Virus record (IMG/VR): IMGVR_UViG_3300044624_001919
Coordinates: 1 to 20,659 of that record
Reading direction: 5' to 3' (one strand)
DNA: 20,659 nucleotides
DNA from: a virus
The translations under genes were made by a program, and so were the position numbers. A model generated the notes under the pieces. The model was given only the letters and a program-made list of their open reading frames with translations, did not search any database and was not told where the DNA came from. Numbering within the stretch: the stretch's first letter is position 1; each line of letters begins with the position of its first letter. Of this stretch, positions 3,305-18,194 are shown in pieces.

Positions 3305-4686
3305 TATTTCTTTTTGGCAAAAGGATTTACGCCTTTCTTGGGACCTGCTTTCTTGTCAGCTGCAGCTGACTTCATTGACTCTTTCTTGTTGCCATCCTTG
3401 TTAAGATCCAGGAAGTCTGGCTTCTTGCCTTTCTTTTTGGCTGCTTCGCCAATATCACGGCGACTAGGACCAGACATATAATTTCCACCAACAGGCACTG
3501 CTCTGCCTGTCATGTCTCTGGTTGCCGGACCAGCAATTGCTTTGATTTTGCCTTGTTGAGCTAAATCAGCAGCCAATTTTGCTAGCCTAGGAAATGTAAT
3601 AGTATCAACTGTTAAGATACCAACATCATCACCACGCATTTCTACTTGAGCACCTGTCTCATTGGCAAGATATTCAATCATATCTTGACCGTTAATACGA
3701 TATGTATTGGTACGTGTATGTGTGCCTTCCATCATACCGCCTGCGTTGCGACGCTCACGGCCTAATGCCTCAGGAGCACCTAGTGGTGTTGGTTCTTCTT
3801 CATCAGCCGGTGCAACGTCAGCGTCAACAGCTACTTCAGCATCAACAGCAGGTTCTGCATTGAGATCTGCACCCATGTCTGCAGCAGGTTCTTGACCTGG
3901 AACAACAGGTGCTTGGCCAGTTAGTGTGCCTTGGGCAGCTTCCATCTGTGTTTTGCCTTGTTGCAAACTTTGCAACAGTTGTGTCAATGCAGCAGCACTG
4001 GCACTTTGAAATTGTGTTGCTTGATCAATTCCCATGTCGTTCTTGATCGAGTCAGTTAGAGCTGGCAGGTCTTTGAATTGCATTTCTGAAACTTCTTCCA
4101 GCATCTTTTGAATTCGGTCAATCATGTCCTGCGCTGCCAACACAACTTGTGCTGATTGCAGTTCGCTTTCTCTGAGTCTGCGACGTCCCAATTTTGACTC
4201 TTTTTGCATAGCCACAGCAGCAGCACCAGCAGCAGCCATCATCTCTTTTTCTTGAGGATTTAGCTGTTGTCCAGATTGTGATTTTTTAGTGGCAGCAATC
4301 AGCTTGGGGTCTTTGAGATTAACTGGCGCAGCAGCAGGTTGTCCAGGCTTTGCTGCCACAGTACCTGTAGCAGGCACGGTTCCTGCAACAGGTGCTGCAC
4401 CTGGAGCTGCAGCCGGCTGTCCTGGAACTACAGGAGCAACTTCTTTGAGTCGTCCTTTGAGACCGGATTCAATCATGAGCAATTTGAGATAAGCAGGATT
4501 GCGCTCGCTTGAGTGAAAAGCAGTGCTTGAACGGTGTTCATTGAGCAGTCCTCGCACACGCATCAGCATATGACGTGATTCATACAAGCTAAGGTTGTCG
4601 AAAGAGACTGAGTGACCCAGTCGATTTTCCAGCACTTGTTCTGCTTTATCTTGTTGTTTGAGAGTGTCTAGTTCTTGCAGTTTCAT
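3304..4686 (-). CDS. Putative virion structural protein with Ala/Pro linkers and EF-hand-like tail
   Basis: The 460-aa product is modular. Residues 1-82 are a helical head (SLYESRHMLMRVRGLLNE). Residues 84-122 are an Ala/Pro/Gly linker built of PGQPAAAP-type units, and 170-255 are a helical core (SAQVVLAAQDMIDRIQKMLE, then EMQFKDLPALTDSIKNDMG). A second acidic linker spans 257-305, followed by a compact alpha/beta segment at about 325-390. The Lys-rich tail contains PDFLDLNKDGNKKE, a D-x-N-x-D-G-type calcium-loop-like motif seen in other T4-like virion proteins. The linkers and tail suggest an extended capsid or tail component; the specific role is unknown. The ATG has AAAAGGAT upstream and a GCTAAATA late box 26 nt away. 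It overlaps the 166-aa upstream gene by 41 nt. Confidence 0.8.
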   Translation of the reverse strand: MKLQELDTLKQQDKAEQVLENRLGHSVSFDNLSLYESRHMLMRVRGLLNEHRSSTAFHSSERNPAYLKLLMIESGLKGRLKEVAPVVPGQPAAAPGAAPVAGTVPATGTVAAKPGQPAAAPVNLKDPKLIAATKKSQSGQQLNPQEKEMMAAAGAAAVAMQKESKLGRRRLRESELQSAQVVLAAQDMIDRIQKMLEEVSEMQFKDLPALTDSIKNDMGIDQATQFQSASAAALTQLLQSLQQGKTQMEAAQGTLTGQAPVVPGQEPAADMGADLNAEPAVDAEVAVDADVAPADEEEPTPLGAPEALGRERRNAGGMMEGTHTRTNTYRINGQDMIEYLANETGAQVEMRGDDVGILTVDTITFPRLAKLAADLAQQGKIKAIAGPATRDMTGRAVPVGGNYMSGPSRRDIGEAAKKKGKKPDFLDLNKDGNKKESMKSAAADKKAGPKKGVNPFAKKK

Positions 4687-7130: not shown

Positions 7131-9032
7131 CTATCCCAATTCAGGATTGTTTTTAGCAAAGTTGGCAGCACTGAATCGCATGCGATCAACAAATTTCATG
7201 CCCTGACCCACATATCCTTCGTGCCCGGGTTCGTTGTTGATGCTGGCCTGCACTGCCTGTGACTGTGAATCCAATTGACGCACCAGTTGATTTTTAAGAC
7301 TGGACACTTCAATGAATGCTTGGAATAGTGCTGCTACTGCCTGTTTGTTTTCGGTTGCCCATTCAAAAATTCTCGGAGCTTTGGCAGGTTCTTGTTGTTG
7401 TATCCACGACCCAAACCCGCTTACCAAGTTGTCATAGCTGCCGCCGCGCACACGACTGTTGATGTAAGTTTTAATCAAGGCAGGAAAATTGCTGATCTTT
7501 CTTGCACGTAATTCGGTAGGATCAAACAAGCGATCCATGGCAGCACCATACTGAGAAAGCAAACGGTTGGCATCTGCTACTGTTTTGGCATCTAATTTGA
7601 TTGTTCGAGGATCTTTGAGACTGGGATCTAGTATAAGAAGCCCTGGACTATCTGCCAATGCTGCAGCACGAATGGGTTCAGCTGGTGCACCCGGTGCAGA
7701 TAAACTGGTGTGTATGGCAACCGCGGCTGTGCTGTCGGCGATCTTTTTGCCCAGATCAGAATCCACAGGCACAGCATACTTGACAGTGTTGGGCTGGAAT
7801 ACCCATTGATTGCCAATACGCTGCGGAGTAGAAGAATAAAGTAAATCACCTTGTATGTAACCGCGAAAGTCTTGCGGAACTGCTCGGCGCAGCATAGGAA
7901 ACAGGCGTTGATAAATGGCAACCAGTTCGCCACGTTCGCCGCCACGTTGTGCCATTATCTTGGCAATGTGTTCTGGGCTTGTGGCCAAGCCATCGTAGCC
8001 CTTGGCCAAAAATCCCGACTTGTCAGTCAGCACGAATTCACCTGAAGGTTTTCGCCCAAAGATGATGGCAGGTTTTCCATCCCATTTAACAGTGGTTTCT
8101 TGTGGACGCTGGGCTGCTGCTACAATGCCAGCAAGTGCTTGTTTAAGGCCGGCACTGGGACGTTGGTCAAAAATCATGTCCTCGGGGTGCTCAATGCGTA
8201 CACCTTCTACAATGACCTGCATACCTTGGTTCACTATACGATCACGCAGACGTGCCATCATGCTGACTTCGTTGTATTCGGTGTATAATTCTGTGTTTTC
8301 TTTTACTAGCCCATCATCAAAAGGAATGCCTTCGCGTTCCATGTGTGCTTTGAAATCTGCAATTTTTTGTGGCTTTTTGGGATCTGCTTCCAGTGCTCGC
8401 ATGACTGCTTCTACGCTGGACAAATCTGCAAGAGTAGCATTTGGGCTCAATAGCATCTTTGCCACTTGTGCCGGATCGTCAGTTATTAATTCGTTGGTGG
8501 CACGATTCATTATGCCGTCGTTTTGATTCAACTTGTAACCCAGGCTCTTGGCCATGCTGTTCAGCATGATGTTACGCAAGGCACCTTTGTATCGGCTAGC
8601 AGGATCATTGCTTAATACAAACTGTGTCCAGCGTGGCTTGTTGCTGAACATGAAGTCTGTTTGCACAAACCCGTTCGCAGGGTTGCCGCCAATGGCTGCA
8701 AAGAAGTGTACCGCTGATCCAGTTTTTTTGATGTAGCGAGCAGGATCTACTTTTTGTTTCTGCGTCCAGACTGTTAGCACTTGTGTCAATTGATCTTTTG
8801 ACATTTCCCCTGCATCAACAGACAAATCCAAGTCACCAGAGTCTGCTTTTCGTCCAGTGGATCCTAACCATTTAACAGGACTGCCGTCGGCAGCTTTTTC
8901 GCTGGTTAAATCCAGTCCAGTAATGCCTTCCAGCCATTGCACAGTGGGCATGACGTCAGCTTGTTTAATTCTTTGCGTGAGTGGTGTCCCGGTGGAGTCT
9001 TTAAATACATTACCGCCTTCGTTTATATTCAT
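7131..9032 (-). CDS. Nucleotidyltransferase plus ligase-like fusion (DUF6267-like C-terminal part)
   Basis: The 633-aa product appears to join two nucleotidyl-transfer modules. Residues about 25-215 hold a Pol-beta-type pattern: GSTGRKADSGDLDLSVD (G57-S58, D67, D69) and a third acid D126 in FVQTDFMFS. Residues about 275-445 resemble the DUF6267-type phage protein and a covalent nucleotidyltransferase core: VKWDGKPAIIFGR, where K316-x-D318-G319 fits ligase motif I, then GYIQGDLLYS (D396, motif III-like) and FQPNTVKYAVP. The classic R five residues after the lysine is P321, so ligase activity is uncertain. Residues 450-633 are helical and unrecognised. The ATG overlaps the 567-aa gene stop (ATGA) within the virion-type region. 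Both domain calls are motif-based. Confidence 0.8.
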   Translation of the reverse strand: MNINEGGNVFKDSTGTPLTQRIKQADVMPTVQWLEGITGLDLTSEKAADGSPVKWLGSTGRKADSGDLDLSVDAGEMSKDQLTQVLTVWTQKQKVDPARYIKKTGSAVHFFAAIGGNPANGFVQTDFMFSNKPRWTQFVLSNDPASRYKGALRNIMLNSMAKSLGYKLNQNDGIMNRATNELITDDPAQVAKMLLSPNATLADLSSVEAVMRALEADPKKPQKIADFKAHMEREGIPFDDGLVKENTELYTEYNEVSMMARLRDRIVNQGMQVIVEGVRIEHPEDMIFDQRPSAGLKQALAGIVAAAQRPQETTVKWDGKPAIIFGRKPSGEFVLTDKSGFLAKGYDGLATSPEHIAKIMAQRGGERGELVAIYQRLFPMLRRAVPQDFRGYIQGDLLYSSTPQRIGNQWVFQPNTVKYAVPVDSDLGKKIADSTAAVAIHTSLSAPGAPAEPIRAAALADSPGLLILDPSLKDPRTIKLDAKTVADANRLLSQYGAAMDRLFDPTELRARKISNFPALIKTYINSRVRGGSYDNLVSGFGSWIQQQEPAKAPRIFEWATENKQAVAALFQAFIEVSSLKNQLVRQLDSQSQAVQASINNEPGHEGYVGQGMKFVDRMRFSAANFAKNNPELG

Positions 9033-11022: not shown

Positions 11023-12414
11023 TTAAGCCTGTTTGATCTGGCCCAGCAGTTGCCTGAGTTTGGTGCCTTGTACGTCTGCTGTGACTTTAGCTGTGTCCAT
11101 ATCTTCGTCGGGTTTGGCAACTTGGCTACGAGTCTTGATAGAGTCCATGATGCTGCTACGCGGACCTTGCTGATTAGTATCCTCTCCGTTGTCAGTAATG
11201 CGCATGGTTTCGATATCGTAGTCCAGATCAACCTTGTTGCCAACGCCCTGACTGCTACGACTTTTCATGCACTGCATTTGATACTTGCCTCGCTCTCGCA
11301 TGGCTCTAGATGTAAAAATACCAAACACAAAGTCAGCTGTATTGATCTTGGATATGCCACCGGCAATGTGGCTATGATCAAACTCAATTTCTTCTACTGC
11401 ACTACGGTTCAACTGACTTGCTGTGACCATTAACACCTTGAGTTCAATGGCCAAGTTACGCAGCTCTTCTGCTGAATACTTGTCCTTGATAAACTGATCA
11501 TTGGGATTGACTTTTACAGTGACCGGCATGATCAGGTCCAGATAATCCACCATGATAAAGTCGATCTTGATGCCGGTCTGTATCTGTACTTCTTTGATGT
11601 AGGCACGCATGTCGTTTACATTGCTTTGTGCTGGCAAGGCCTTGATGCGATAGTCGCCAAACTTCTTGCCCATCATTTTTACTTTGAGCTCTGTTTGTCC
11701 AATATCTCTACGAATGTCTTTGGTACTGGTACTGGTCAACATGGCGTCTGTACGCAGAGCAACCAGTTCTTCATTCAATTCCAATGTGATGTAAACACCA
11801 CTCAATCCTTGGCTCAACCAGTTTAAAGCTATATTCATCATGACCAGGCTCTTGCCCGAGCCAGAACCTCCAGCAAAAATGTTCAGTTCGCCTCTGCTGA
11901 ATCCGCCATACAAGATACGATCCATCTGTGGCCATCCGGTTGAGACCTGACCGCCTGAGTTGAAATATCGGTTGAGTCGATCACTAGGGCTGTCAAAATA
12001 GTTTGTGCCCATGTCCTTAGTCAGGCTGATCTGTACTGCGTCTTTGATCAGCTTTTCGATACCGCCGGAATCATAATCAGGTTGCTCCAACAAGTCAGCT
12101 GCTTTGAGAATAGCTCGCTCCAGTGCTTGCTTGCGAGTAAACGATTCAAACTCATCTAGAAACCAGTCAAAGTGACCTTCATTGAGATCGGGAATTTCCT
12201 GCAACACAATACCAGTGGCAGCACGAATCTGCGCACGATCTGGCATGGTCTTGAATTCGGCGCTGTGTTGTTTAATGAATTCAGCGGCTGGTCTCAACGT
12301 TCGATCAAAGTTTTCTGGATCATAAATGTTTTGCACACGTACATAGCTGGTGGCATCGCACAACATCATTTCCAAGAATAATCGTTGTACGTCAGTGTTG
12401 TAATCTTTTAACAA
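11023..12414 (-). CDS. 41: Replicative DNA helicase, T4 gp41-like (DnaB family)
   Basis: This hexameric 5'-3' helicase unwinds DNA at the fork and works with primase gp61. The 463-aa product has an N-terminal helical domain (1-135) and a RecA-like core. Walker A is GGSGSGKS at 182-189, the catalytic Glu is E212 in YITLEL, and Walker B is FIMVDYLDL with D290. The sensor-like MVTASQLNRSA and an Arg-rich C-terminal segment (FTSRAMRERGKYQMQ) follow. Length is close to T4 gp41. The start is TTG at 12412-12414 with AGGAA upstream; the next ATG would cut into the conserved MMLCDATSYVRV segment. A sigma70-like promoter lies in the 27-nt gap and the end of the upstream gene. Gene symbol follows T4 usage. 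Confidence 0.95.
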   Translation of the reverse strand: MLKDYNTDVQRLFLEMMLCDATSYVRVQNIYDPENFDRTLRPAAEFIKQHSAEFKTMPDRAQIRAATGIVLQEIPDLNEGHFDWFLDEFESFTRKQALERAILKAADLLEQPDYDSGGIEKLIKDAVQISLTKDMGTNYFDSPSDRLNRYFNSGGQVSTGWPQMDRILYGGFSRGELNIFAGGSGSGKSLVMMNIALNWLSQGLSGVYITLELNEELVALRTDAMLTSTSTKDIRRDIGQTELKVKMMGKKFGDYRIKALPAQSNVNDMRAYIKEVQIQTGIKIDFIMVDYLDLIMPVTVKVNPNDQFIKDKYSAEELRNLAIELKVLMVTASQLNRSAVEEIEFDHSHIAGGISKINTADFVFGIFTSRAMRERGKYQMQCMKSRSSQGVGNKVDLDYDIETMRITDNGEDTNQQGPRSSIMDSIKTRSQVAKPDEDMDTAKVTADVQGTKLRQLLGQIKQA

Positions 12415-12434: not shown

Positions 12435-12451
12435 TTTAATATTATACACGA
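12435..12451 (-). repeat. 17-bp promoter-core repeat, copy 2
   Basis: This is the second exact copy of TTTAATATTATACACGA (first at 2387-2403). It carries the TATAAT of the helicase promoter and the stop codon of the upstream gene. Confidence 0.75.
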
Positions 12452-12469
12452 TACATTCTTTCTAGTCTA
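12441..12469 (-). promoter_or_regulatory. Sigma70-like promoter for the helicase gene
   Basis: On the minus strand TAGACT (12464-12469) and TATAAT (12441-12446) are 17 nt apart: four of six matches at -35 and perfect at -10. Initiation near 12434 gives a leader of about 20 nt containing AGGAA before the TTG start. It lets the helicase be expressed independently of the inserted cargo genes. Confidence 0.6.
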
Positions 12470-13203
12470 GTGACATCGGCCCAACTGCAAAAATTAATTG
12501 CATCGTTGATTGACCATAATCTTTTTTCCTCCGGCAGCTCGTGTAAGTACTCAAAGACATATATAAGCCAAGCTACCATCCATGGACTAAAATTATCTTC
12601 TATACCCCAAAATTTAATCAAATCGGGCATTGACATTTTATCCGACGGCATGTTCAAGTTATAGTTTAATTGAGTAGCCCAATAATTGTTAAAAAATAAC
12701 TTCTGGCTATCAGTTAACTCCTTTGAAATAATATCTTTTAAGAAATTTACGTCAGTTAAATTCCAATAATTGTAGCATGTTTGAGACGGAGTAAATGATT
12801 GAATTTTTTTATGCCAATTTGCAATGTCAATAAAATGATTATCAACTAGATTAGATAATTTTAATGTTAACTTTTTATAAGAGATATTATATAACACATT
12901 GCCAATGTGCGTATAGGGATATAGTTGTATAATTTTAGCATTTGGAAATGTTGTGTTAATTAATTCTGTATCAAAATTGTGTGTAACTACTACTGTATGA
13001 TTTTTTATACGTGCTTGTATTTCTTTGTGCCAATGATAACGACCATTTAATGATAAAACTAAATCATTGGGACCGGTATCAACGCGAAATATATTTGTGT
13101 TTTTCGGAACAACGTCGGCTATTAAGAATCCCAGAAAGTTGCCGGAGCAGCCTTCGAGATGACTTATCACATATTGAACATTTTCTTTATTATTTTCGAC
13201 CAT
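12442..13203 (-). CDS. P-loop, sulfotransferase-like protein
   Basis: The 253-aa product has a glycine-rich loop after the first strand (VISHLEGCSGNFLGFLIAD, about residues 12-30) and later VVVTHNFDTELINTTFPNAKIIQLYP. The T-H-N plus FPNAKII pattern is typical of sulfotransferase-fold proteins. The loop lacks the GK[ST] of ATPases, fitting a PAPS-type phosphosulfate loop. The C-terminal half is aromatic-rich and unrecognised. The ATG at 13201-13203 lacks a ribosome site and makes a 37-nt overlap with the SGNH gene; a GTG at 13168-13170 overlaps that stop as GTGA and would start MISHLEGC right at the first strand. It belongs to the AT-rich cargo between primase and helicase. Confidence 0.75.
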   Translation of the reverse strand: MVENNKENVQYVISHLEGCSGNFLGFLIADVVPKNTNIFRVDTGPNDLVLSLNGRYHWHKEIQARIKNHTVVVTHNFDTELINTTFPNAKIIQLYPYTHIGNVLYNISYKKLTLKLSNLVDNHFIDIANWHKKIQSFTPSQTCYNYWNLTDVNFLKDIISKELTDSQKLFFNNYWATQLNYNLNMPSDKMSMPDLIKFWGIEDNFSPWMVAWLIYVFEYLHELPEEKRLWSINDAINFCSWADVTRLERMYRV

Positions 13204-13712
13204 TGTAAATGTGTGTTGGGCCCTGGATGTGTATCATCTTCTGCACGATCAATAAAAGAAGACCAAGTAAGGGTCGGAATGTGCGAATGTTTGATTTCGT
13301 CAATAACAAAATAAAATCCATGATTCGGTAGTAAAAAATTTTCTTTGTTATATTTAAATTCTCGTAACTGAATAATAGTTATACCCGACTTGACAGAAAC
13401 TTTTTTATAGTGGTCAATAATATCATTATTTGAAACTAAAAATCCAGCGGTTGTGTAAGTGTTTACTTGTAAATCACCCAACAGTTGGTGCCAGCATTGA
13501 TTGTAGGCAAGACCTACACCAAAGCTAAAACTACTGCCAAAGACCGAAATGTCTGGATGTGCATGATGTTCGGGGCCGCGGTATCCCAGACTGTTAAAGG
13601 TATAATCAATGGGTTTACCTGAATCATGTCTTGCAAAATACTTGTATGACTGATTAGAAAATTTTCCAACCCAATTATTGATTCCATCTGCATATCCTGA
13701 ATTATAATTCAC
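13167..13712 (-). CDS. SGNH/GDSL-family hydrolase-like protein
   Basis: SGNH enzymes are serine esterases, lipases or glycan deacetylases. The 181-aa product shows the blocks in order: YTFNSLGYRGPE leading into DISVFGSSFSFGVGL (GSS replaces GDS, nucleophile S61), TTAGF (G90), SNND (N95/N96), and a C-terminal DDTHPGPNTHLQW supplying D159-x-x-H162. A GSSFSFG motif with D..HPG..TH recurs in phage-encoded members of the family. No signal peptide is present. The start is GTG at 13710-13712, 3 nt after the radical SAM stop, with a weak GGA upstream. It is compact for the family. Flanking radical SAM and sulfotransferase-like genes suggest a joint glycan or surface-modification role. Confidence 0.8.
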   Translation of the reverse strand: MNYNSGYADGINNWVGKFSNQSYKYFARHDSGKPIDYTFNSLGYRGPEHHAHPDISVFGSSFSFGVGLAYNQCWHQLLGDLQVNTYTTAGFLVSNNDIIDHYKKVSVKSGITIIQLREFKYNKENFLLPNHGFYFVIDEIKHSHIPTLTWSSFIDRAEDDTHPGPNTHLQWSKIIKKMFNM

Positions 13713-13715
13713 TTT

Positions 13716-14711
13716 TCAATCCAATGGGTTACTTTGCAGCAGATTTGACAAATAAGGTACATAATCGTTGACTGAAATACCTTTAATTTTATCTTGTGTA
13801 GTAATTGCTTCGACAAATTTAGGCCATAACGCATGACCGGGCTGTACAGTATGATTAAAATAAGCAGGATATTGCACATAATTTTCAATGTACAACAATC
13901 CTTGTTGATTGAACCAATTGACAGTATTTTGCTTGTCGTGAATGTTGAGGTTGCTAATGGTATAACTTACTACTACTTCTCGAAAAATCTGTCTGTACTG
14001 ATCAATATTTGTTAAGGTTCGATCCCAGCTTAATGGATATCTTACATATTCAAATAGCTTGTCAGTTCCGTCTATGCTAACACAGCAACTGATATTGCTG
14101 AATTTAGCAAATGTATCGATATGCTTTTTGGTCAATGTAACACTGCCGTTGGTAACAAAGCTAACCAAACAATCAGTGTTGCCGTTTAACAGCAACATAT
14201 CTAGTATAGCAAACGATTTTTCAATCAACAATGGCTCACCGCCTAATAGATTGATACGTTTGATTGTTTTCCAGTTAATTGTGGATTGATAGTGGTCAAA
14301 GTTGCGATCTATTCTACTATTCTCAGATGAGATTTTGATTTGTTTTTTTAGCAAGCCTTGCCAAGCAGAACTGGCATTGGCACCACAAGTAATACAAGTT
14401 GAATTGCACAATGATCCCAAATTAAATTGATACAACATTGGCTCGGCATCATGTATATTGTCGGCTATCACTTCGATATTTTTATCTAGCGCAAAGTCTA
14501 AAAATCTATTCTCCATTTGTCGACGACTTTCAATTCCAGAATCTTCAAGATGCCAGCATTTTTGGCAAGCCTCGGACTGTTTATTATCAATAAAATCTTG
14601 TTGCAGACGGGATCGAGAAATGGATTTTTGTAACCAACAACATATAGAATCTTGTTGGGTTTTTAAATTTATCTCTCTGCTGTACCAAGGCATTACACAA
14701 AAATGTTTCAT
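13716..14711 (-). CDS. Radical SAM protein, twitch-type
   Basis: Radical SAM enzymes use a [4Fe-4S] cluster and S-adenosylmethionine to start radical chemistry. The 331-aa product has the cluster motif C102-x3-C106-x2-C109 (CNSTCITCG), the SAM-contact GGEP at 157-160 and a following VTNGS strand. N-terminal cysteines (C5, C24, C25, and C49/C52 in ACQKCWHLEDSG) and the MPWYS start match twitch-domain radical SAM proteins found in marine phages and bacteria. The substrate is unknown. The ATG overlaps the primase stop (ATGA). It needs an Fe-S cluster, giving a possible client for the phage iscU-iscA pair. Confidence 0.92.
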   Translation of the reverse strand: MKHFCVMPWYSREINLKTQQDSICCWLQKSISRSRLQQDFIDNKQSEACQKCWHLEDSGIESRRQMENRFLDFALDKNIEVIADNIHDAEPMLYQFNLGSLCNSTCITCGANASSAWQGLLKKQIKISSENSRIDRNFDHYQSTINWKTIKRINLLGGEPLLIEKSFAILDMLLLNGNTDCLVSFVTNGSVTLTKKHIDTFAKFSNISCCVSIDGTDKLFEYVRYPLSWDRTLTNIDQYRQIFREVVVSYTISNLNIHDKQNTVNWFNQQGLLYIENYVQYPAYFNHTVQPGHALWPKFVEAITTQDKIKGISVNDYVPYLSNLLQSNPLD

Positions 14712-15676
14712 AGTCTGAAGGTCTTAACAAGTTGTTTTTTGCGCATTTCTATTTTGATTCTGCTGGTCTCTCGTGCCTGCATGATAGTTAGCAAGGTTGC
14801 TAAACGACCATATTTCTTTACAGCATCATTGACATCTTTGCAACCATCCCACTTGGGCATGCTCACCGACCATCCCAACTCAATGGCACGATTCACTAGC
14901 TCCATGCCAGGCCGGTCTTGATCGGGTACTACAATAATTTCCTTTCCCAAACTACGTATGAGTCTGGCTTGTGCATCACTGACTTCGTTGTGCATCAAAG
15001 CCAAGCCACTGATGCTGAGTGCATCAAATATGCCTTCTGTCACCACAACTGATTGCCAATTGGCATGTTGCAAGTCTGTGCCGAACACATACCCAGGTTG
15101 AAAATCGTTTAACCATACGGGTTTTCGATCATCCAAAAATCTAGTGGTATTGCCAACCAAGGTGTTGTTATAGGTGAACGGGATAATGACTCCCGGTCTT
15201 GCGCCTGCAGTTGCACTGACCATAAATGGATAATCTACAGGTGCACATCTGCTGCGCAAGTAATTCCATATGTCTGTATGTGCTGGTGTTACAAATTCAA
15301 CCCCGCCTATGTCACGTTCTTCGAAGTGTATGCCTTGTATAGCTGCTGCAGTTTGCTGACGGTCGTCTAGTAATCCTGTTATACTACGATGCCGTAGGCT
15401 TTCTAGATTGACACGTTCTATTTCTTCTTGTGGTACATTCAACCAGGTCAACAGCTTGCGAGCTTTAAAACTGAGATTACGTCCCAAGATAAAACTAGCA
15501 GTATAACCGCAGTTGAAACAATGATAACTCCAACCTTCGGCGCTGCTTTTGAGTCCGCCACGCTGCCGTCGATCCTGACTTTCGCCATTGTGGACACAGC
15601 AGGGGCCGTTGAAACTGATCCAGCCCGAGCTGGATGTCTTGCGTTTTCCTGGGAGGTATTGGACAATATCTAGCAT
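14708..15676 (-). CDS. 61: DNA primase, T4 gp61-like
   Basis: The primase makes RNA primers for lagging-strand synthesis with helicase gp41. The 322-aa product has an N-terminal zinc-binding module (C26/C27 and H29 in PCCVHN; C53 and C56 in HCFNCG). A TOPRIM domain follows: E214 in VVVTEGIFDAL and D252/D254 in IIVVPDQDRPG, then W-D-G-CKDVNDA (276-285). Order, motifs and length match T4 gp61. The ATG at 15674-15676 has no ribosome site; an extended -10 element lies 6 nt upstream, so the transcript may be leaderless. In T4 this gene sits close to gp41; here three cargo genes separate them. Confidence 0.93.
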   Translation of the reverse strand: MLDIVQYLPGKRKTSSSGWISFNGPCCVHNGESQDRRQRGGLKSSAEGWSYHCFNCGYTASFILGRNLSFKARKLLTWLNVPQEEIERVNLESLRHRSITGLLDDRQQTAAAIQGIHFEERDIGGVEFVTPAHTDIWNYLRSRCAPVDYPFMVSATAGARPGVIIPFTYNNTLVGNTTRFLDDRKPVWLNDFQPGYVFGTDLQHANWQSVVVTEGIFDALSISGLALMHNEVSDAQARLIRSLGKEIIVVPDQDRPGMELVNRAIELGWSVSMPKWDGCKDVNDAVKKYGRLATLLTIMQARETSRIKIEMRKKQLVKTFRL

Positions 15677-16946: not shown

Positions 16947-17520
16947 AGTTGCGTTCTGCATCTTCTAGTAAATTCATATGCAGTGCAACCAATCGTGCAT
17001 AACCCAAGCTGTGGCTTTTCTTAAAGGTGTAGCCTCGACTGTCGTCGCCGTCCCACACTGACGCAAATACTTGATCCCAGGCACATTTCTGCAAATGAGC
17101 TTTTCCAGGTCTAATGACGCTGATAAATGCTGCCATACGAGGAATAGAATCTGGTTTCATTGTCTGCAGCAGATCCGCATAGTTTCCCACATGAACCAGT
17201 TGTGTTGCCCAGGTTGGATCAGTCCACAATCGTGCCCAGTTGACATCAGCTGCCAGCACAGATTCGTAATGCTCAGGGTCGCGTACCAGCTGATAAACCG
17301 ACATGTTTAAGAAATCGATTTTAAAATATCCGCGAGATTCTGCTTCGTTATAATCGATCGCAGCACAGCCATTTACAGGATCCTGAGGAATAGCAGTTAC
17401 ATATACTCCGCTGTTGTGTCGACGCACCTGTCCTTGATGCAGTTGTCGTGCAGTAGTATGCCGGATCAAGTTCAACAGTTGAGTACGATCTGCCAGGTCT
17501 ATATCAATATCTGCTGACAT
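16930..17520 (-). CDS. Miniature DNA polymerase III alpha-like (C-family) protein
   Basis: The 196-aa product keeps, in order, short motifs of the bacterial PolIII alpha catalytic core. They are SADIDIDLADR near the start (like PDxDxDF with the two catalytic Asp), GYFKIDFLNMSVY (third catalytic Asp, D69), SVIRPGKAHLQ (RPG segment) and YTFKKSHSLGYARLVALHMN (the F-NKSH-xAYA fingers motif). PHP, beta-binding and most thumb regions are missing; family members usually exceed 1,000 aa. I recall similar short proteins in T4-like marine phages. The ATG at 17518-17520 (TGATG with the upstream stop, AGGA 5 nt away) is preferred over one two codons earlier. Activity is uncertain; it may be a polymerase relic, regulator or specialised enzyme. 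Confidence 0.82.
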   Translation of the reverse strand: MSADIDIDLADRTQLLNLIRHTTARQLHQGQVRRHNSGVYVTAIPQDPVNGCAAIDYNEAESRGYFKIDFLNMSVYQLVRDPEHYESVLAADVNWARLWTDPTWATQLVHVGNYADLLQTMKPDSIPRMAAFISVIRPGKAHLQKCAWDQVFASVWDGDDSRGYTFKKSHSLGYARLVALHMNLLEDAERNSIQPV

Positions 17521-18194
17521 CACCATCCTGCCTGTTTTAAAATGTCACGAGCTGCTGCTGTGTCTTCTGGGTAGTCTCGAAACCGTTTTTGCCAAAAGTC
17601 AGCATCCACATACGGCCAAATCAGATTGATTTGATTACTGTTCAATCGAGATAAAAATTCTACTCCGGAGGTGGAGTTATACAGTGCCCAAGCTGAGACT
17701 CGGCCTGACGAAACAGCATGACATATAACATTGTCGTTGCCGAATCTTATGTAATCATGTGCTGGATTGCCAGTTTTTTCTGCCCAGTCGATACTGGTTT
17801 CAATTGCTCGATATATGGCATCCATGACATTTTCCACTCGCAGATATTCTGCCAAGAATTCTTCGTAAACACTGTCCTTACACCAGTAATCAATTTTCTT
17901 GTTGTTCTTTAGTAGCCATTCAACAAAACGCGGAACGTTGACAGCACGTACACTGACACAGTATTGTCCAAAACGAGCAAATGCACGATAGTAGGGACTG
18001 GCAGCAAAGTCATCAAATGATTTTGACCGCCCTGTGCCTTGACTCATGTCATAGAATTTTTGATAAGCACGTAATCCTATCTGTATACCAGTTTCATTTT
18101 GACTTTGGTAGCGTTTCTTCTGCTCACAAACATGTACTATAAGTGTGGTTTCTTTGGCAAAAGATTTTTTACAGTATTGACATTCAAATTTCAT
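17520..18194 (-). CDS. Zinc-finger protein coupled to the mini-polymerase
   Basis: The 224-aa product opens with a single zinc finger, C5-x2-C8-x12-H21-x-C23 (ECQYCKKSFAKETTLIVHVC). A basic patch (EQKKRYQ) and a helical body follow, with FYDMSQGTGRSKSFDDFAAS, CVSVRAVNVPRFVEWLL and SNQINLIWPYVDADFWQKRF. The finger plus body recalls a conserved protein of T4-like cyanophages; function is unknown to me. Nucleic-acid binding is likely from the finger. The ATG has GAAGAAG upstream and its own sigma70-type promoter, and the stop shares a base with the mini-polymerase start (TGATG). The tight coupling suggests the two act together, perhaps at replication or transcription sites. Confidence 0.85.
   Translation of the reverse strand: MKFECQYCKKSFAKETTLIVHVCEQKKRYQSQNETGIQIGLRAYQKFYDMSQGTGRSKSFDDFAASPYYRAFARFGQYCVSVRAVNVPRFVEWLLKNNKKIDYWCKDSVYEEFLAEYLRVENVMDAIYRAIETSIDWAEKTGNPAHDYIRFGNDNVICHAVSSGRVSAWALYNSTSGVEFLSRLNSNQINLIWPYVDADFWQKRFRDYPEDTAAARDILKQAGW

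Follow-up and report, generated by a model that had tools for sequence, protein, structure and literature searches.

The junction between the DNA primase and replicative helicase genes was an insertion hotspot in the 20,659-nt stretch of viral DNA analysed here (the window; IMG/VR record IMGVR_UViG_3300044624_001919) and in its relatives, with conserved core genes flanking cargo that was variable or absent. By comparison with relatives, the cargo of the window looked like a composite of two cassettes stacked at this hotspot, a radical SAM gene (cassette A) and an SGNH-sulfotransferase pair (cassette B), rather than one module of fixed shape. We regard the genetic part of this explanation (hotspot, swappable cassettes, stacked A and B) as very probable. 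By analogy, the biochemical role of the cargo may be the tailoring of a glycan or surface molecule of the infected cell or virion, a proposal that we hold tentatively and at rather less than even chances. The explanation as a whole, a composite accessory cassette at a hotspot in the replication block together with surface or glycan tailoring, is in our judgement slightly favored.

A primase-helicase junction with exchangeable cargo

The locus contained the following features, given in the order of transcription.

14708-15676, minus strand: DNA primase, the left flank (phrog_47, E 1.9e-25; Toprim_2 above cut-off)
13716-14711, minus strand: predicted radical SAM enzyme with an N-terminal twitch domain, 331 aa, cassette A (NF033640)
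13167-13712, minus strand: SGNH-type protein by its motifs, 181 aa, GTG start, first gene of cassette B
12442-13203, minus strand: predicted sulfotransferase-fold protein, 253 aa, second gene of cassette B (AlphaFold2 model and fold searches)
12441-12469, minus strand: promoter-like site for the helicase, TAGACT-17-TATAAT (10/12 in a consensus scan), overlapping the end of the sulfotransferase-fold gene
11023-12414, minus strand: DnaB-like replicative helicase, TTG start, the right flank (phrog_19, E 6.5e-68; DnaB_C above cut-off)

An earlier note, made from the letters alone, had described three enzyme genes splitting the primase-helicase pair, and the gene coordinates, all on the minus strand, bore this out. 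The classes that it had named (radical SAM, SGNH and sulfotransferase-like) were broadly right according to profiles, fold searches and SGNH motifs. The genes were tightly packed: the radical SAM gene began in an ATGA overlap with the primase stop codon, 3 nt separated it from the SGNH gene, the SGNH and sulfotransferase-fold genes overlapped by 37 nt, and 27 nt remained before the helicase. The source is an uncultivated large T4-type phage of the T4-type/jumbo phage clade. Among cultured phages, its helicase was closest to those of the jumbo phages Atu_ph07 and PA5oct (about 47% identity), and a second public contig (L081) was 99.97% identical to the window over 16 kb. Elsewhere, the window encoded a 2OG-Fe(II) oxygenase (PF13759, 5848-6510), a NUDIX protein (PF00293, 1421-2299), a DUF6267 protein (7131-9032), and a possible C2H2 zinc finger that scored below cut-off (17520-18194).

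Relatives were collected by a primase search of IMG/VR, which gave 73 further loci covering both flanks, near-duplicate contigs included. At 53 of the 73 loci the junction was empty and the primase and helicase genes overlapped, and 20 carried other cargo, whose main genes lay on the same strand and were mostly AT-richer than the flanks. Comparison of this interval among relatives had been put forward in the earlier note as a check, and by it the cargo was accessory: most relatives lacked it, and the junction was empty in the closest ones (primase identity 84-87%). The finding was thereby more informative than first described, because an exchange site was exposed. Only a few classes of gene made up the cargo at the junction, and most of it consisted of SGNH or radical SAM genes. 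GDSY-type SGNH proteins occurred in L012, L014, L029, L067, and L074, other SGNH families in L020 and L054, N-twitch radical SAM genes in L013, L030, and L032, radical SAM together with SGNH genes in L027 and L064, and B12-binding radical SAM genes in L035 and L045; L050 held a possible second sulfotransferase-like and SGNH pair, and L117 an O-methyltransferase. On the helicase tree, at least 14 changes between filled and empty junctions and at least 8 between presence and absence of the pair were required, with starred branches forcing 10 and 5 respectively, and these counts do not distinguish gain from loss. The most frequent state, shared by the closest relatives, was a primase gene running into the helicase start, and same-strand cassettes of accessory enzymes have repeatedly been gained, lost, or swapped at this point.

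Accessory cassettes of T4-type phages are a known kind of element, and the gene set itself is undescribed; our literature search found no paper combining radical SAM, SGNH, sulfotransferase, and phage. The nearest likeness is the host recognition cluster of pelagimyophages, one of the hypervariable regions of T4-type phages, in which conserved core genes are likewise separated by swappable accessory genes. Its glycosyltransferases are believed to change the surface of the host cell, and two close pelagimyophage genomes differ by cassettes of radical SAM genes (PMC7029224). Unlike that cluster, the site described here was a single junction of overlapping genes within the replication block, it received cassettes of 1-4 genes, and it featured a recurrent SGNH-sulfotransferase pair and a separate promoter for the helicase.

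The three cargo proteins and their possible substrate

The assignment of the radical SAM protein was firm by profile and motif. It scored 185.9 bits against NF033640 (N_Twi_rSAM; cut-off 170), and its relatives scored 203-318 bits. The CxxxCxxC motif for the [4Fe-4S] cluster of SAM (C102, C106, and C109) was invariant in 10 sequences, and the N-terminal twitch cysteines (C5, C24, C25, C49, and C52) were invariant in 10 relatives. Within the NF033640 family, the window protein differed in belonging to a helicase-linked subfamily and in having a shorter C-terminus. We found no literature report on the substrates of phage N-twitch radical SAM enzymes or of the NF033640 family. Radical SAM genes of this type were also seen in other phage DNA. 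One 192-kb phage contig (G002) encoded seven NF033640 proteins above cut-off, and the genes for five of these formed a cluster in G002:C1:138000-157000 (L123), accompanied by a carbamoyltransferase and a DegT/DnrJ/EryC1 aminotransferase. In the cultured Vibrio phage K566, a radical SAM cluster lay beside two GT8 glycosyltransferases.

The assignment of the SGNH-type protein rested on motifs. SGNH/GDSL hydrolases share a serine in GxSxxxG and a DxxH near the C-terminus, and the GSSFSFGVG and DxxHPG motifs were invariant in relatives; S61 of GSS and D159-H162 were invariant in 13 sequences, the blocks being assigned by eye. The protein departed from known SGNH/GDSL hydrolases in having GSS for GDS, a length of only 181 aa, and no profile match; indeed, none of the 13 SGNH-type members matched a Pfam SGNH family. 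Its predicted structure had a pLDDT of 50, and the DxxHPG block weakly and locally matched another SGNH protein.

For the second protein of cassette B, a sulfotransferase fold was moderately supported by its AlphaFold2 model (pLDDT 86.5). The top Foldseek and VIA rows were nearly all sulfotransferases (Z up to 8.1, rmsd 3.9 over 167 residues; no Foldseek E below 0.001), and its top BFVD matches were named sulfotransferase. There was no sequence match to any solved structure. The predicted model shares its overall fold with the PAPS-dependent sulfotransferases, both tyrosylprotein and cytosolic. The cofactor loop of those enzymes usually carries Lys or Arg, whereas proteins of the window type seem to have Cys or Ser there. 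Neither the loop (HLEG[CS]SGNF) nor a later strand (AKIIQ[IL]YPY) had a basic residue at the expected places, as positioned from secondary structure. What sulfotransferases do in phages has been described as unclear (PMC10580990).

Taken together, a sugar or peptide would undergo C-H chemistry by the radical SAM enzyme, an acyl group would be taken off or passed on by the SGNH protein, and a sulfo group, or one like it, would be transferred by the sulfotransferase-fold protein. Receptors might thereby be masked, superinfecting phages excluded, or virions decorated. We favored surface tailoring because of the glycan context of the relatives' radical SAM clusters and the radical SAM cassettes of pelagimyophages, a glycan context that belongs to paralogues in other phages and not to the window locus. 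More speculatively, the three proteins might constitute an undescribed phage tailoring pathway whose product would be a glycan, peptide, or small molecule with a novel modification and that spreads as exchangeable cassettes bringing a promoter for the severed replication gene; we consider this possible but doubtful. If the surface tailoring reading is true, one junction of the replication block would act as an exchange port for surface-modifying enzymes in a widespread uncultivated phage clade, and phage N-twitch radical SAM enzymes, which form a large family, would gain a defined setting.

The target might instead be a peptide or protein, a protein of the phage or host being modified by the twitch radical SAM enzyme and further by the sulfotransferase-fold protein. 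The best Foldseek and VIA matches of the latter were tyrosylprotein sulfotransferases, but these were only marginally better than the matches to other sulfotransferases. Similarly, the radical SAM core weakly resembled peptide maturases (PapB and HxsB, for example), yet its peptide-maturase scores fell far below the cut-offs, and the gaps in the cassette (3 nt, an overlap, and 27 nt) left no room for a precursor peptide gene. We judged a peptide or protein target unlikely.

Linkage, composition and movement of the two cassettes

The nearest relatives of cassette A (49-52% identity; L130-L133 and L135) occupied the same site and strand without an SGNH or sulfotransferase gene. The radical SAM subfamily of the window was helicase-linked at 68 of 78 loci, in 63 of these downstream of the helicase and on the opposite strand. 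Cassette B was found at the junction of 13 relatives (L083-L092, L094, L095, and L109) in which no radical SAM gene was present there. Its gene order was constant, SGNH then sulfotransferase-fold, with the same kind of overlap, and in L117-L120 the pair was placed after the helicase. Where pair-bearing relatives were readable far enough, they mostly carried that radical SAM gene after the helicase in convergent orientation.

We next considered whether the three genes belonged together. An alternative holds that there is no common pathway and that the junction collects AT-rich accessory genes, so that classes frequent in these phages meet by chance. N-twitch radical SAM genes were indeed frequent (11 of 12 contigs examined, with up to 9 matches in one), most loci of the window's radical SAM subfamily lacked the SGNH-sulfotransferase pair, and the cargo at the junction was diverse. 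However, when the count was confined to loci whose sequence extended 1.3 kb or more past the helicase, the radical SAM subfamily was present in 10/14 loci with the pair versus 4/51 without it. Of the 10 positive loci, three lie on contigs of the window's own phage and others form two near-identical pairs, and two of the four pair loci without the gene (L117 and L119) end before its expected place. On the helicase tree, 4-5 of five independent contrasts agreed with the association and none disagreed, five being too few to reach p 0.05. Moreover, the three-gene set recurred in four arrangements, among them a distant set (L207) comprising a helicase, another SGNH-like protein, a 27% identical sulfotransferase-like protein (31-nt overlap), and a convergent radical SAM gene. 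The suggestion that the three genes co-occur elsewhere was therefore borne out, and a meeting by chance was considered improbable. Since the three proteins tended to be found together even when rearranged, they probably serve one pathway, and we read the association as functional and not obligate.

Natural variants were also found. In L085 (640-760) and L096 (4920-5040), nearly the whole SGNH gene was deleted and only the 3' part that overlaps the sulfotransferase-fold gene was kept; the latter gene was still constrained (dN/dS 0.19). Between them, relatives with an empty junction, with one cassette, with a rearranged set, or with the SGNH gene deleted allow each gene's role to be examined comparatively. 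In L126 (2120-4014), on the same contig as L081, another N-twitch radical SAM gene (318 bits) was directly followed by a further SGNH-type gene. These two genes (GC 0.35 and 0.32) lay beside a conserved 496-aa gene, apparently elsewhere in the same phage genome; thus the radical SAM-SGNH pairing recurs with a different SGNH family.

The cargo genes were lower in GC (radical SAM 0.355, SGNH 0.352, and sulfotransferase-fold 0.316) than the primase (0.460) and helicase (0.456), and Asn, Ile, Lys, Tyr, and Phe together made up 31-36% of residues in the three cargo proteins versus 22-25% in the primase and helicase. To this extent the AT-rich and Asn/Ile/Lys-rich character reported earlier held, but synonymous codon use was not foreign. 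The GC3 of the cargo (0.29-0.33) fell within the span of the remaining genes of the window (0.29-0.51), its synonymous codon score against the rest of the window was no worse than that of core genes, and the GC difference between cargo and other genes resided in GC1 and GC2. Since GC3 and synonymous codon score fit the window, the AT-richness of the cargo mainly reflected amino-acid content, and codon usage as proof of foreign origin was rejected. In nearly all carriers, the pair had a GC of 0.30-0.37 versus 0.43-0.49 in the flanks, the exception being L109 (0.40 and 0.43, flanks 0.43-0.45). The bias was therefore mostly a long-standing property of these gene families, not a mark of recent import.

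Rates of synonymous change indicated movement of the pair. In L117/L120, dS was 0.08 and 0.07 for the two pair genes versus 0.54 for the helicase; in L087/L092 it was 0.21 and 0.26 versus 0.59, and in L117/L119 1.42 and 1.49 versus 0.72. Because the two genes gave similar values that departed from the helicase value in each case, the pair appears to have been exchanged as a unit. Constraint was evident in close phage pairs, with dN/dS of about 0.15-0.25. Pattern-based scans, whose reach is limited to fairly close relatives, detected no relative of the pair in 84,980 species genomes of bacteria and archaea; within the limits applied, no relatives of the three cargo proteins were detected among 50,697 records of cultured phages. 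Given the negative result in the bacterial and archaeal genomes, transfer from phage to phage is a better fit than acquisition from a host.

The earlier note had proposed a single, horizontally acquired module, of which some elements stood. The genes were accessory and co-occurring, and exchange between phages was supported; the single module gave way to two stacked cassettes with different nearest relatives, and recent bacterial import was not supported. In the latter scenario, one three-gene module would have come recently from a bacterial host, in keeping with the low GC of the cargo against its flanks and its absence from the closest relatives. Codon choice fitting the window, AT-richness of the pair in nearly all carriers, the scan of bacterial and archaeal genomes, and the separate phage relatives of the radical SAM gene and the pair all spoke against it, making it very unlikely. 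A viperin-like antiviral radical SAM system directed at competitors was rejected as extremely improbable, since the weak matches of the radical SAM protein to PADLOC pVip (43.5 bits) and NF038283 (40.5 bits, cut-off 180) contrasted with its NF033640 score above cut-off, its N-terminal twitch cysteines were conserved, and no kinase was nearby.

As to the means of spread, the three cargo proteins had no endonuclease profile match, and so the cargo did not qualify as a homing-endonuclease cassette. Only in L125 (2957-3637) did a SegE-like GIY-YIG endonuclease gene, with NUMOD3 motifs, adjoin similar cargo, its neighbors being two radical SAM genes and one SGNH-type gene, and it is a possible means of spread for cargo of this type. 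Target-site duplication was considered as a general mechanism and rejected: a clear direct repeat was present only in L014, and at most filled sites the repeats were chance matches or shared coding sequence. At the junction of the window, an 8-bp repeat, CTTGTTAA, was not significant (p 0.09). In L014, a 25-bp direct repeat, ATTGAGGAAAAGACAAATTGTTAAA, flanked a single-gene insert (primase end near 2932, helicase start near 3665). The inserted SGNH-type protein started with MLKKY, compared with MLK(D/E/N)Y at the helicase N-terminus, as if the helicase start had been taken over.

A probable promoter ahead of the helicase gene

The helicase had been described as having its own promoter just after the cargo. 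This was supported by a perfect sigma-70 consensus in pair-bearing relatives, and the site in the window itself was weak. The region of the window contained 28 promoter-like matches versus 18.3 +/- 4.5 in shuffles; because matches were so abundant, the 10/12 site carried little weight on its own, and it was the relatives that made it believable. A perfect TTGACA-N17/18-TATAAT preceded the helicase in 13 of the 13 relatives with the pair at the junction, whereas junctions with other cargo and empty junctions reached at most 10/12. Since these loci share ancestry, the perfect promoter represents one or a few origins, not 13. Its -10 element ended about 5 nt before the helicase ATG, and the 10/12 site of the window lay further upstream. 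With the -10 element so close to the ATG, a leaderless helicase transcript is possible in the pair-bearing relatives. A promoter within the 3' end of the primase gene of empty-site phages was rejected as a candidate: TATAAT was common there, but the -35 elements were poor and the site was inside coding sequence.

The promoter at the end of cassette B would restore expression of the helicase after its uncoupling from the primase. Promoter-bearing segments accompany shuffled accessory genes in the mobile regulatory cassettes of T4-type phages. Unlike in those cassettes, the sigma-70 consensus found here preceded the core gene downstream of the cargo. In L090 and L091, the -35 hexamer overlapped the sulfotransferase-fold stop codon without coding for the tail of the protein, which suggested selection on the promoter itself.
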